Of a stretch of DNA of 64,000 bases, positions 4,027 to 10,254 are shown piece by piece. Where the stretch lies: positions 124,001 through 188,000 of the forward strand of contig JAXKVY010000001.1 of NCBI GenBank assembly GCA_036172455.1, written 5' to 3'. Numbering within the stretch: the stretch's first letter is position 1; every line of letters begins with the position of its first letter. This DNA is from Candidatus Izemoplasma sp. (lineage in GTDB: Bacteria; Bacillota_I; Bacilli_A; Izemoplasmatales; Izemoplasmataceae). Made by a program: the position numbers and the translations under genes. The notes under the pieces are model-generated. The model did not search any database. It was given only the letters and a program-made list of their open reading frames with translations, and had not been told where the DNA came from.

Positions 4027-5679
4027 TTACATTTGTTCGGGGGCTGAAACACCAATTAAGTGTAAGGCATCCTCAAGGACAATTTGTAAGGCTTTAATTA
4101 AGGTTAAATGTTCGATTGTTTTAGTTGTGTCATCTGTGATGAATTTTTCACTATTATATAGACTGTGGAATGCGGTTGCTAATTTGTGAATGTAGGTCGT
4201 AACTTTATGAGGGCTTTTAGTTTTTGCGCTAGATTCAATCACTTCAGGATAAGCAGCTAATAGAGATAATAACTCATTGATTTTATCATTATCAAGTGTT
4301 GTGAATGTTGTGAGCGTGTCATCATAACTGAGATTTTGTTTCTCAGCTTGTCTGAAGATGCTATGAATCCGTGCACTTGCATACTGTACGTAATATACAG
4401 GGTTTTCCGTTGTCTTACGGATGGCTAAATCTAAATCTAGGTCCATTTGTGTGTTTAAACTTCTTGCCGCAAAGAAATACCGAATCGGGTCTTTACCGAC
4501 TTCATCAAGCAAGTCTCTGAGGGTAATTGCCTTACCACTACGTTTGCTCATTTTAACTTCTTCACCATCTTGGATCACTTTAACCATTTGTAAGATTTCA
4601 ACATCTAAGATATCTTTCTTACCACTGACAATTTCTATGGCTGCTTGTAGACGATCGATGTAACCATGGTGATCGCCACCTAAAATATCGATTAATTTGT
4701 CATATCCACGTTTTATTTTATTATGATGATAGGCAATATCTGGTGTTAAATAGGTGAAAGAGCCATCACTTTTAATAATAACGCGATCTTTTTCATCGTT
4801 AAATGCCGTGGTTTTTAGCCAAACAGCACCATCTTTTTCATATGTATAACCGTTATCTTTTAACAGTTTAACAGTTAATTCAACATCATGATTTTTATAT
4901 AGTTCTTTTTCGTGAAACCAGACATCAAAAGAGACATCAAAATGGTTTAAATCAACTTTTAGTCTCTCTAGTAAGGTCTCAACACCAAATGTTTTGATGA
5001 TCTCATACCCGTCTTCTTTGATGTATTTATCACCGTACATGTTTTTAAAGGCTTTTGCGGTTGTGATGATATCTTCTCCATGATAGCCATCTTCAGGTAT
5101 TTTGGCATCGATATCAAACAATTGTTTGTACCGTGCTTCTATACTTTTTGCTAATGTATGAATTTGATTTCCGCCATCATTAACATAATATTCTTTTGTG
5201 ACATCATACCCTGCTTTTTTCATGATACGTGCTAAGCTATCACCTGCTGCGGCACCTCTGGCATGACCGATATGTAATGCCCCTGTTGGGTTAACACTTA
5301 CAAACTCAATATTGACCTTGGTGTTCTTTCCAAGGGTTAAGTTTCCGTAGGTGGTACCTTGTTTAAGAATGGTTGGAATCACGTTATGTAAAGCCGTATC
5401 TTTTAAGTAAAAATTAATGAATCCAGGCCCGGCAATATCGGTTTTATCAATCGGGAGGTTAGTCATATCCATCGTTTCAATGATGTCTTCTGCGATGTTG
5501 CGTGGTGCTTTTCGGGCGACACGCGCATATTGCATTGCGACATTGGTTGATAAATCACCATTGCTTTTATCTTTTGGCGTTTCAATAGTAATCATGATTG
5601 TATCATCATAATACTTTAGGTCTTTTAAGGCTTTAATAATGCTATTTTCTAATGTGTTTTGAAGTTTTAATAAATTCAT
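4027..5679 (-). CDS. argS: arginyl-tRNA synthetase
   Basis: Class I synthetase that charges tRNA-Arg. The 550-residue protein has the N-terminal Add1 domain. The HIGH-type signature reads HIGHARGAAAGDSL (about residues 137-150) and the KMSKS-type loop reads KMSKRSGKAITL (about 377-388). The C-terminal DALR anticodon-binding domain follows (YYVQYASARIHSI onward) and the protein ends in the family-typical IGVSAPEQM. It starts 16 bases downstream of the NadC-like gene, so it is probably expressed with it. No T-box leader is possible at this spacing. Length and motifs look normal. Confidence 0.97.
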   Translation of the reverse strand: MNLLKLQNTLENSIIKALKDLKYYDDTIMITIETPKDKSNGDLSTNVAMQYARVARKAPRNIAEDIIETMDMTNLPIDKTDIAGPGFINFYLKDTALHNVIPTILKQGTTYGNLTLGKNTKVNIEFVSVNPTGALHIGHARGAAAGDSLARIMKKAGYDVTKEYYVNDGGNQIHTLAKSIEARYKQLFDIDAKIPEDGYHGEDIITTAKAFKNMYGDKYIKEDGYEIIKTFGVETLLERLKVDLNHFDVSFDVWFHEKELYKNHDVELTVKLLKDNGYTYEKDGAVWLKTTAFNDEKDRVIIKSDGSFTYLTPDIAYHHNKIKRGYDKLIDILGGDHHGYIDRLQAAIEIVSGKKDILDVEILQMVKVIQDGEEVKMSKRSGKAITLRDLLDEVGKDPIRYFFAARSLNTQMDLDLDLAIRKTTENPVYYVQYASARIHSIFRQAEKQNLSYDDTLTTFTTLDNDKINELLSLLAAYPEVIESSAKTKSPHKVTTYIHKLATAFHSLYNSEKFITDDTTKTIEHLTLIKALQIVLEDALHLIGVSAPEQM

Positions 5680-5695
5680 TTAATGTGCACCTCTT

Positions 5696-6520
5696 TTATT
5701 GAATTTGGACAGTAATGTTAAATAGTGTATAGTCTTCAGTGATTTCTGGGATCATAATAAACTTAATCCCGCTATGACCAATATCGTTTATGAGAGTATC
5801 TGTATTTTCATGCGTTGCGATTAATAGCTTATCGTGGGCATAATCAAGACATTTCTCAACCATCTGAGCCGACATATTATGGATTCTGATAATATCACAT
5901 GCCGTCTTTGAGGCAGCTATATAATCCTCTATTGTTTCAACAACTACTTCAACTTTCACATCTGTGGACAAGTGTTTTAAGACATGTGAGACGGCAGCTT
6001 CGATGGTTGAATATTCTTTTAAGTGATCTTTTGTAATCACACAGTAATCACTTAATGTAAAACGGTGATTAATCCCACCACCATCAATTACAGCAGCTTT
6101 TTCAAATACTCTAAAGTTAGGCGTCGTTAGACGATTATCTAATAAAAGAGTATCCGTATGCTTCAGTAAGTTTACATAATGATGTGTTAAGGTCGCAATA
6201 CCACTTAGACGCTTAAGGAAGTTTTTCGCAATGCCTAATCCTTTTAGTACATCACATGCCGGTCCATGAATAATCATGATAATCGTACCTGAATCAACCC
6301 ATACGCCGTGGTCATTGATCACTTTTAAGACAATCTCAGGGTTAATGATCTCATACAATCGTTTGATAAATTGTGTTCCACTTACAATTCCGTTACTATT
6401 CGCATGAATGGTTATTTCAGCTGTAGAATGAAAGAGTAATAGTTCTGATGTAATATCACCATTAGGGACCTCTTCTTTTAAGGCGTTTTCTAATAGTCGA
6501 TCAACTGTTTTATCCATCAT
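5696..6520 (-). CDS. NadC-like (quinolinate phosphoribosyltransferase family) protein with degenerate active site
   Basis: The fold is recognisable from NGDITSELL near residue 20, LSGIAT (105-110), DNRLTTPNFR (128-137) and GGGINHRFTLSD (147-158), the NadC/ModD family. In active NadC these segments read RKT, LIKxNH, LDN and ExSG. Here they read R130-L131, V161-I-T163, I213-H214-N and I234-A-T-H, so both conserved lysines, an aspartate and a glutamate are replaced, while N151-H152-R153 and R130 remain. No nadA or nadB is in the window. It therefore may not make NaMN; it could be a pseudoenzyme that binds a pyridine or PRPP ligand, or use another substrate. Its start (ATG 6520, or the adjacent ATG at 6517) follows the Fic-like regulator by 6 bases, and argS follows by 16, so the three form one transcription unit. 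Family confidence is high, function is unknown. Confidence 0.7.
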   Translation of the reverse strand: MMDKTVDRLLENALKEEVPNGDITSELLLFHSTAEITIHANSNGIVSGTQFIKRLYEIINPEIVLKVINDHGVWVDSGTIIMIIHGPACDVLKGLGIAKNFLKRLSGIATLTHHYVNLLKHTDTLLLDNRLTTPNFRVFEKAAVIDGGGINHRFTLSDYCVITKDHLKEYSTIEAAVSHVLKHLSTDVKVEVVVETIEDYIAASKTACDIIRIHNMSAQMVEKCLDYAHDKLLIATHENTDTLINDIGHSGIKFIMIPEITEDYTLFNITVQIQ

Positions 6521-6526
6521 CTTACC

Positions 6527-7597
6527 CTATATTTTTAAATCAAGTTGCTCAAACTTAAATTGTTGTTTTTTTGGTTTTGTAAGTCGCATCCATTTCGCAC
6601 TTCGGCCTTTACCAATTGGCCTAATTGCACCTTCATCACGCAATCGTCTTAATGTTCTATTAATAGTTGAGTCTGAGACGAATGGATGTTTTTGTCTGAG
6701 GTCATCTTTACTGAATATCTCTTCGAACTTGAGGATTGTATTTTCAATATTATTGGTTTTATTTAAGTGTTTATCGAATTCGTAATCTCTAACTAAGTAC
6801 CGTAAGGTTTGATAAGATTCAATCGCTTGCTTGAGTAAAAAGCGGTGTAATGGCAATACTTGAGCTAACCCTTCAGAGTAATTAAAAGATGACTGTAAAA
6901 CAACTTGTTTAAGTTGTTCTTGATGTTGATGTATATGTTTCATAAAGCTCACATATTCATACACTTCATAGCCATTTGCAAGTAATAAAATATAAATGAG
7001 AAGCATACCAATTTCTTCATTTTTATCATAAAATGGCTTAATATGAATAAAATCGATATAGAAATTTACAATCAGATAATTGACTTCATAGCTTTCTTCT
7101 TTGAGTGCTTCATTGAACAAATCGACAGCCTGATCGAGTACGTCACGTGTATTTCGATAGGTTTTGTCTAATAAGGTTGGAGCTTTAATGTCATCATTTA
7201 GTTTCCGGAATTGACAATGTTTTTTAGGGATGATATCAGTATATAAAAACTGCATTAAGTCTTGAATTTCATTGGTTAAAAGTTCAAATGTCGAGATATC
7301 ATCATGAATTTTGTGAAATGCTAATTTCAAGTTTTTAATGAGTTGTTCATCTTTGTTTTTGGGTTTAACGTCTTTAAATACCAGTGATTTAAAACGTCGA
7401 TTAGAGACATCAATATCAAACATTTTGGCAAAGAAATAAACATCATTTTTAATTGTTTGGATGACAATTGTTTCATAATCATCACTTAAAATTTGGTGTG
7501 TTTCTTGGTTTGTACCAATTGATTGGTACACCTTAATATACTGCATAATAATATCATTCGGAATTTGTGTACGATCAATGTTTCTAAGGCATTTCAT
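6527..7597 (-). CDS. pseudo-Fic domain protein with C-terminal winged-helix DNA-binding domain
   Basis: 356 residues. Residues about 140-260 resemble a Fic domain. The signature, normally HPFxDGNGRxGRLL, here spans residues 187-200: K187-P-F-Y-D-K192-N-E194-E195-I-G-M198-L-L. The catalytic His is Lys and the phosphate-loop glycines and arginines are lost, so AMP transfer is unlikely. Residues about 296-340 form a winged helix (STINRTLRRLRDEGAIRP, then the basic wing GKGRSAKW). I infer a ligand-responsive transcription regulator built on a dead Fic enzyme. The ATG has a GGAGG site 7 bases upstream, and the gene is first in the run with the NadC-like gene and argS. No antitoxin-like inhibitory helix gene is adjacent. 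The domain reading is moderately sure; the role is inference. Confidence 0.65.
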   Translation of the reverse strand: MKCLRNIDRTQIPNDIIMQYIKVYQSIGTNQETHQILSDDYETIVIQTIKNDVYFFAKMFDIDVSNRRFKSLVFKDVKPKNKDEQLIKNLKLAFHKIHDDISTFELLTNEIQDLMQFLYTDIIPKKHCQFRKLNDDIKAPTLLDKTYRNTRDVLDQAVDLFNEALKEESYEVNYLIVNFYIDFIHIKPFYDKNEEIGMLLIYILLLANGYEVYEYVSFMKHIHQHQEQLKQVVLQSSFNYSEGLAQVLPLHRFLLKQAIESYQTLRYLVRDYEFDKHLNKTNNIENTILKFEEIFSKDDLRQKHPFVSDSTINRTLRRLRDEGAIRPIGKGRSAKWMRLTKPKKQQFKFEQLDLKI

Positions 7598-7712
7598 TAG
7601 ATGTCCTCCAATCTTTTCATTGATATTAATAGTTTACTATATTTAGGCTGTTTTTGGAAGAAATTCAACCTTATTTGTAGTCATTACTATAAATTTGAGT
7701 ATAATCAGTACA

Positions 7713-7736
7713 AAAAGTAGCGGAATCGCTACTTTT
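7713..7736 (-). terminator. intrinsic terminator of parEC
   Basis: The inverted repeat AAAAGTAGCG / CGCTACTTTT has a 4-base GAAT loop and is followed on the minus strand by a short T tract. It overlaps the parC stop codon at 7729-7731. Confidence 0.75.
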
Positions 7737-10254
7737 CGTTTTCTTCATCAAATAATTTTTGTTGAATTGTTTCGTGGTCATCTTCTTTTTCGTAATCACT
7801 TAATGGTGGGATCGTGTCATCTTCTTCTACATCCTCAATTTGCATGTAGAGCGGTTCACCATCTTCAGGGTTTAAGAAGTGGCGACCATTCTCTGTCCGA
7901 TCAACTTTAATGTCAAATGCACTGATATCAATAAAGCCTGTATTTGTATTAATACGGATCATTGCACGGTTTTTGTACTGTGTTGCATTCATTAAGCACG
8001 CATCAACCACAAGATATGGATTTGATTTAACCACTTTGTAAAGTTGAACACCTTTATTGGTGCGTTTTTTCTTCTCAATTGTCGTGAGATCAACCCGTTT
8101 AATGGTGCCTCTGTTAGTAAGGATTAACAAATCATGATGGGCTTTTAGAATAATACCGGTACTGAGTTTATGTTTTGGTGCAATATTCATTGCTTTTACC
8201 CCTTTTGCGGAGGTTGATGTAACGGGTATTTCATCTAAGTTCATGCGCAATCCAAGGCCACGTTCACTTAAGATTAAGACTTCACGATCTTGTGTTTCAG
8301 TGGTATCAATAGACACAACTTCATCACCTTCATTTAGTGATAAGGCACGGATTGTTCTTGAATATCGAGAGACATCGAAATCACTTAGCTCAGTTTGTTT
8401 GATTAAATTGTCACGTGTAACAAATAACAGTTGCATTGAGACTTCAAAGTCCGGGACAGCTAAGACTTTAATGATATGTTCATCATTTAATTGAACAATA
8501 TTATTAATATGCGTTCCTAACTCACGCCATTTATAGGTTGGAACTTTGAAGACAGGAAGATAAATATAATTCCCTTTATTAGTAAACAGTAATAATGTAT
8601 CGATAGTTGATACTTCTTCTTCAAAGAGTAAAGAATCTGTTTCTTTTAGATTTTGATTTTCTGTCGCACGGTATGAACGAATTGATGTTGATTTAATATA
8701 TCCATCTTTACTAACACCAACAACCACTTGTTCATCAGCAACAAGTTCTTCTTCTTGGATGGTAATTTTTTCAATCTCATCCTCAATTTCTGTTAATCGA
8801 TCGGTTTGTAATAGCTTGCGTGTTGCACGTAGTTCTTTGATGATAACATCTTCAAGTTCAGATTCGTTCTTTAATATTTTATTTAATTGATCAATTGTTT
8901 CATTTAAATCTGCTTTTTCGCCTTCTAAAGCTGTAATATCCGTTGTTGATAAACGATATAATTGCAATGTAACAATTGCTTCTGCTTGTTCTTCTGTAAA
9001 CTCAAAACGCTTAATCAATTGTTTCTTAGAATCCTTTTTATTTTTCGAAGCACGGATGATTTTGATAACCTGATCAACGATATCAACCATGCGGATAATA
9101 CCATCAACAATATGAAGTCGTTTTTTCGCTTTATGAAGCTCATAATTACTACGGTTTGTAATAACTTCTTTTTGATGTAAAATATACGCATCGATAATTT
9201 CGAATAATCCCATTAATTTTGGTCGTTTATTACTAATCGCAACCATGTTATAGTTATAGGATTTTGTTAAATTCGTTTTTTTATGTAAAAAGTTTTCGAT
9301 GACTTCCGGATCAAATGTCTTTTTAACAGTGATGACAATCCGTAAACCATGACGATCCGATTCATCGCGAACTTCTTCGATCCCATCGATATGTTTTTTT
9401 ATCCGGATATGATCAATTCTCCGTACAAGATTAGCTTTATTCACTTCATAAGGTAATTCAGTTACGATAATTTTTTGATCTTCAATATGTGTTTTTGATT
9501 TAATAATGATTCGTCCTCGACCCGTTTCAAAAGCTTTTTTGATTTGGTCTTTTCCTTGTACTATTGCACCCGTTGGAAAATCTGGACCTTTCACGATTTT
9601 TAACGCTTGTTCCATCGTAAGTTCGTGGTCTTTAAGTCGTTTAATAACAAGGTTGATAATTTCTTTTAGATTATGGGGGGGGATTTCAGTTGCGTATCCT
9701 GAACTAATCCCTTGTGCTCCATTACACAATAAGTTAGGGTACCGTGATGGGAGAACTGTTGGTTCATATTCTTCATCATCAAAGTTTGGGATAAAGTCAA
9801 CTGTACGTTTGTCGATGTCGCGAATTAACTCTTCACTGGCTTTGCTCATACGGGCTTCAGTATACCGCATTGCAGCAGCACTATCACCATCGATAGAGCC
9901 TTTATTACCATGCATATCAACAAGTAATGTACGCGTCTTCCATGGTTGTGATAGTCTTACCATCGCATCATACACAGAGCTATCACCATGTGGGTGATAC
10001 TTCCCGATAACGTCACCAACGATACGCGCAGATTTCTTATAAGGTTTGTTATGAAACATTCCAAGTTTATACATCGCATATAATATACGGCGTTGTACAG
10101 GTTTCAATCCATCTCTGACATCTGGTAATGCACGGTCTTGAATTATGTACTTTGAATAACGTGCGAAGCGTTCACCAACAATATCTTCTAAGTTTTCTTT
10201 GAGTATGTTTTGATCAATAAAATCGTCTAATGCTTTTAATTTTGATTTTGCCAA
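7729..10254 (-). CDS. parC: DNA topoisomerase IV subunit A
   Basis: Breaks and rejoins DNA to decatenate daughter chromosomes, working with ParE. The 841-residue protein has the type IIA breakage-reunion domain with [20 protein letters not shown] (about residues 42-61), [16 protein letters not shown] (about 89-104) and the catalytic tyrosine in AMRYTEARM near residue 130. A beta-pinwheel C-terminus follows from about residue 500. It lacks a GyrA-box (QRRGGKG), which together with the partner favours ParC over GyrA. It lies 13 bases after parE and ends in its own terminator, so parE-parC form a two-gene operon. The tail is acidic. Confidence 0.95.

Follow-up and report, generated by a model that had tools for sequence, protein, structure and literature searches.

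The window, by which we mean the whole 64,000-nucleotide stretch from a Candidatus Izemoplasma sp. that was analysed, carries on its minus strand a NadC homologue with a degenerate active site. Its open frame at positions 5696 to 6520 starts with ATG and codes for 274 amino acids with the fold of a quinolinate phosphoribosyltransferase (QPRT). The frame ends 16 nt upstream of argS (4027 to 5679, minus strand), the next gene of a conserved run. On its other side, across a gap of 6 nt, lies the frame of a Fic-derived protein of 356 amino acids with a C-terminal winged HTH (Fic-HTH; 6527 to 7597, minus strand), preceded by parC (7729 to 10254, minus strand), an upstream neighbour that is conserved in the order. 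The order, Izemoplasmatales, consists of wall-less bacteria.

Both Pfam models of the NadC family matched above their gathering scores, PF01729 with 95 bits and PF02749 with 37.5 bits, while the nadC equivalog TIGR00078 gave 178 bits and thus stayed under its cut-off of 198.4. AlphaFold yielded a confident quinolinate phosphoribosyltransferase fold (pLDDT 93.8) with the alpha/beta-barrel and N-terminal sandwich of NadC/QPRT, and the best structural match of the model was S. pyogenes NadC (5hup) with a TM of 0.92. The original prediction, made from the letters of the DNA, had claimed that the overall fold survives, and both values bear this out. It had also proposed a check for a second, intact nadC. 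No further NadC-family protein was found in the window genome, which is 99% complete; two extra PF01729 matches were rejected as candidates because they were weak and lay within longer frames, one of them that of PncB.

The active site was compared with solved NadC structures, 49 homologues of the same order and 50 relatives from a wider set. Among the 50 relatives 67 columns reach at least 90% conservation, and the window NadC has lost 24 of them. The losses cluster in the active-site motifs, which lost 15 of their 22 columns as against 9 of 45 outside them (Fisher p = 0.0003, for a motif set that we defined). R130-L131 stands for RK, VIT163 for LIK, IH214N for LDN and I234ATH for EASG. These segments had been named in the prediction with all residues correct, and E95-R96, E193, G258 and H262 are to be added to the losses. 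Altogether E95, R96, K131, K163, D164, N165, E193, D214, E234, S236, G237, S256, G258 and H262 are replaced, whereas R130, H152, R153, N215 and H166 are kept. The arginine lost at position 96 is the one that reaches the site of the neighbouring subunit in known QPRTs. The catalytic set ER..LN, DTRKT, NHR, KDNH, EVE, LDN, EASG and SVG..TH is therefore incomplete in the window NadC, where only R130, H152, R153 and a few other residues of it persist. H152 and R153 align with H160 and R161 of human QPRT, which contact quinolinate (PMC4726147); the residue matching human K171 is not kept. Judged by these replacements, the protein has lost its PRPP- and metal-binding residues together with part of the quinolinate pocket, and we infer that it has no QPRT activity.

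The preceding Fic-HTH does not have the HPFxxGNGR motif either; the window sequence reads IKPFYDKNEE at this site. With PF02661 it scored 17 bits against a gathering score of 24, below the level of an active Fic/Doc protein. The catalytic motif HPFx[DE]GNGRxxR is absent from all Fic-HTH members examined, so that the earlier claim of a dead Fic neighbour extends well beyond the window. The HTH motif (SDSTINRTLRRL; SDSTINRTLKRL), on the other hand, is highly conserved throughout the order, and Fic-HTH is probably the regulator of some regulon. Of the 90 genomes of the order 82 carry Fic-HTH, as do 144 of the 296 genomes sampled from the class. Among 20 Fic loci taken from the class's other families the gene is mostly found close after parE-parC, and no NadC neighbour was seen at any of these 20.

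A strong hairpin (AAAAGTAGCGATTCCGCTACTTTT, about 7713-7736) is located between parC and Fic and its form is conserved in relatives. It is likely the parC terminator, and thus Fic-NadC-argS may begin a new transcript. The minus strand carries an element, AATGACTACAAATAAG (about 7675 to 7690), some 80-90 nt ahead of the Fic start; it matches ATGACTATAAATAA of relatives and is possibly an operator or promoter element. In two families many members have similar elements of the ATGACTATA type before Fic. An exact match to the ATGACTATA-type element was found neither upstream of nadA in 14 genomes nor upstream of pncB in six, and matches with one mismatch were scattered there without a conserved position. 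Because the Fic-upstream element was not found before nadA or pncB, we dropped Fic-HTH as a candidate regulator of NAD genes.

NadC matches occur in 52 of the 90 genomes of the order. The 50 in which NadC is full or nearly so were inspected; the two others hold fragments. In 42 of the 50 genomes NadC directly follows Fic-HTH on the same strand, with gaps ranging from an overlap to 9 nt. Six genomes carry NadC elsewhere, beside nadA and nadB, and in one (G061) it is situated at a contig edge. The conserved run is parE-parC-Fic-(nadC)-argS-recJ-apt-relA; many relatives without nadC simply have parC-Fic-argS or parC-Fic-recJ. Fic-HTH followed by NadC is thus an operon arrangement ancestral to the order. 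The original prediction had proposed a check for conserved co-occurrence, and the gene order is indeed conserved. Canonical NadC active-site motifs were present in 45 of the 50 genomes and degenerate in the other five. In all four degenerate cases whose contig extends far enough upstream, NadC follows Fic-HTH. A dead Fic is the ancestral condition, to which the decay of NadC was added secondarily, so the two states are not one innovation. This does not fit the dedicated two-gene pseudoenzyme cassette that had been proposed, as 45 relatives have canonical NadC motifs, mostly beside the same dead-Fic gene. Nor do both degenerate genes obligatorily occur together, since Fic-HTH without NadC is common and the NadC motifs are intact in most pairs.

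The five degenerate copies belong to two genera. One comprises the window genome (G000), G061 and G060, with a fourth member, G059, having an intact NadC; the other comprises G079 and G080, with G081 and G082 of the same genus being intact. G079 is Candidatus Xianfuyuplasma coldseepsis zrk13, which has been cultured and sequenced (PMC8397711). Another genome of the order, G006, matches Hujiaoplasma nucleasis zrk29 (PMC10470597). G060 and G061 are incomplete metagenome assemblies, G060 being only 53% complete. Neither nadA nor nadB was found in any of the five genomes, three of which are about 99% complete, and no second NadC substitutes for the degenerate one. The earlier statement that nadA and nadB are not near the locus therefore held and could be widened, both genes being absent from the whole window genome and not merely distant. 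PncB for nicotinate salvage is present in four of the five (window genome, G061, G079, G080). nadA is absent from 5/5 genomes with degenerate motifs versus 6/45 inspected genomes with intact motifs (Fisher p of about 2e-4, with phylogeny ignored). Because six genomes with intact motifs already are without nadA, the upstream pathway was probably lost first, i.e. loss of nadA and nadB probably precedes the decay of NadC. Three genomes (G026, G029, G063) have a motif-intact NadC and neither nadA nor a full nadB; they possibly use imported quinolinate or lost the pathway recently. Furthermore, a NadC away from Fic (locus L079 of G077), in a genome without nadA and without a full nadB, has slightly altered motifs, LDD and EVGG. 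It possibly represents an early stage of decay.

A species-like tree was built without NadC from Fic, ArgS, ParC, ParE, RecJ and Apt. Here the degenerate copies fall in three places, with 100% support for G079 plus G082 and for the clade of the window genome, G061 and G060. The intact G059 is sister to this clade and the intact G082 to G079, and G080 is placed next to the intact G081. In the NadC tree, on the other hand, the degenerate copies group together on long branches. Yet the NadC data did not reject a species-like grouping of the degenerate lineages (AU p = 0.10); the full species topology was rejected with p = 0.002, in which other nodes are involved too. The simpler reading of these trees is that catalysis was apparently lost independently at least three times. 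Horizontal spread of one degenerate nadC was considered and not adopted, because the AU p of 0.10 tolerates the species-like grouping, although such a transfer may have happened.

The reading frames of the degenerate copies are open, while in a simulation of neutral evolution 0.3 substitutions per site already yielded about seven stops on average. The window genome and G061 share the replaced residues, so a signal of selection between the two post-dates the losses. In this pair NadC has 60% amino acid identity and ArgS 86.5%, and the window NadC evolves about four times faster than argS; where both members of a pair are intact, the conservation of NadC equals or exceeds that of argS. NadC differences between the window genome and G061 at codon positions 1/2/3 were 34/20/57%, and a pairwise codon likelihood rejected omega = 1 with a 2dlnL of 145 at saturated dS. 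A branch model gave an omega of 0.04 for the post-loss clade versus 0.02 for the background and rejected omega = 1 with a 2dlnL of 294; because dS is saturated, the omega values are rough and serve to reject neutrality, not as estimates. For G079 and G080 omega = 1 was rejected with a 2dlnL of about 28 each, in which constraint before and after the loss is mixed, these being single-lineage cases. On deep branches part of the purifying signal may predate the losses, with the exception of the pair of the window genome and G061. In addition, GGGINH is kept in all degenerate copies. Thus NadC of the window's clade is under purifying selection after the loss, and the degenerate NadC is relaxed or remodelled yet still selected.

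Because catalysis appears lost while selection goes on, the protein probably has a job other than its old reaction, and NadC would then no longer catalyse the QPRT reaction and would be maintained by selection for some other role, which we consider probable. By sequence, the starting point was an apparently intact ancestral nadC between the gene of the Fic-derived regulator and argS. In lineages that lost nadA and nadB, with PncB present wherever the genome is complete enough to tell, NadC was stripped of the residues that bind PRPP and metal and of some of its quinolinate pocket, apparently in three separate lineages, and in the window's clade it then kept evolving under purifying selection. 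Presumably it no longer makes nicotinate mononucleotide, and the gene would be kept for a second role, a non-catalytic one already held by the ancestral dimer, selection acting on this role alone once de novo synthesis had gone. The role itself is a guess: most likely binding of a small carboxylate such as nicotinate or quinolinate via the retained R130/H152/R153, or of a protein partner, so that NadC would serve the supply of NAD or pyridine as a binding protein or scaffold. We regard a role as partner or sensor together with Fic-HTH as doubtful, and a repeated independent conversion to a selected pyridine-sensing or -buffering pseudoenzyme after loss of de novo NAD synthesis, possibly acting via Fic-HTH, as rather unlikely. 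Against this reading speaks that many sister lineages deleted nadC outright, so that the retained role would be dispensable.

A different explanation is that NadC is a functionless relic which decays slowly under weak constraint and faces clean deletion next, as in sister genera. The frame would have stayed open because its disruption would disturb translation of argS-recJ-apt-relA or give a harmful misfolded product. The strong acceleration of NadC relative to its neighbours, the correlation with the loss of nadA and nadB, and the clean parC-Fic-argS deletions in many relatives all speak for it. Yet a constraint from the operon or from folding hardly explains 60% amino acid identity with omega = 1 rejected after the loss, nor GGGINH in all degenerate copies and the retained QPRT fold, and we consider the relic rather unlikely. 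The model of the original prediction, in which the degenerate NadC is a pyridine- or nucleotide-binding protein that controls Fic-HTH in a complex, draws on the partly retained quinolinate pocket and on the adjacency in 42 of 50 genomes and in all four testable degenerate copies. Adjacency may be plain operon inheritance, however; more than 30 genomes of the order have Fic-HTH but no NadC at all, which is also widespread in the class, Fic-HTH is equally conserved beside a NadC with intact motifs, and no element is shared with nadA or pncB. The complex thus seems quite unlikely to us.

Residues common to the window NadC and that of G061 (DNRL, IRxHNM, LLIATHE, FIMIPxIT) suggest a newly constrained site and hence, by analogy with the NadC paralogue ModD, an enzyme remodelled for another substrate or chemistry. 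But the degenerate copies of the other lineages differ at the same positions, E193 and D214, the acidic residues, have been replaced, and the ModD model reached 73.9 bits against a cut-off of 178.9, so that we hold a new enzyme to be improbable. An active QPRT with an unusual site that uses imported quinolinate could point to the overall fold, to R130/H152/R153 and to relatives that keep an intact-motif NadC without nadA. As the lysines of RKT and KDNH are lost together with the EASG loop and both acidic residues, it is hardly credible. Thus we favor the view of a protein without QPRT activity that is kept for another role.

Among known systems NadC/QPRT itself (EC 2.4.2.19; TIGR00078, PF01729/PF02749; 5hup and human QPRT) is similar in length, two-domain fold (TM 0.92), the motifs LSGIAT, GGGINHR and EKxAV and the orthologous operon position. 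The window NadC differs in that its PRPP/Mg residues and some of its quinolinate ligands are replaced, in its score under the equivalog cut-off and in a genome that has no nadA/nadB to supply quinolinate. ModD (TIGR01334), the NadC paralogue of molybdate loci, is likewise a NadC-derived protein outside the NAD pathway, but no molybdate-type locus lies beside the window NadC, and with 73.9 bits, far below the cut-off of 178.85, an identity as ModD was rejected. PncB (TIGR01513) has a distantly related fold; its 478-amino-acid frame lies elsewhere in the window genome, as a gene of its own whose family score is normal. Pseudoenzymes in general share the pattern of a kept fold, lost catalysis and continuing selection. 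A pseudoenzyme of NadC/QPRT was not described in the literature that we searched, and a description may exist elsewhere.

Domain-based annotation would label the degenerate copies 'nicotinate-nucleotide diphosphorylase' and would credit a working step to bacteria unable to make quinolinate. If the losses are read as above, they form a natural replicate experiment, in which one enzyme loses catalysis after loss of its pathway in at least three related lineages. In the lineage where this can be tested NadC was not deleted but kept under selection, which points to some hidden role that ordinary NadC has besides catalysis. Because the cultured strain zrk13 carries a degenerate NadC (PMC8397711), such a role would be accessible to experiment.
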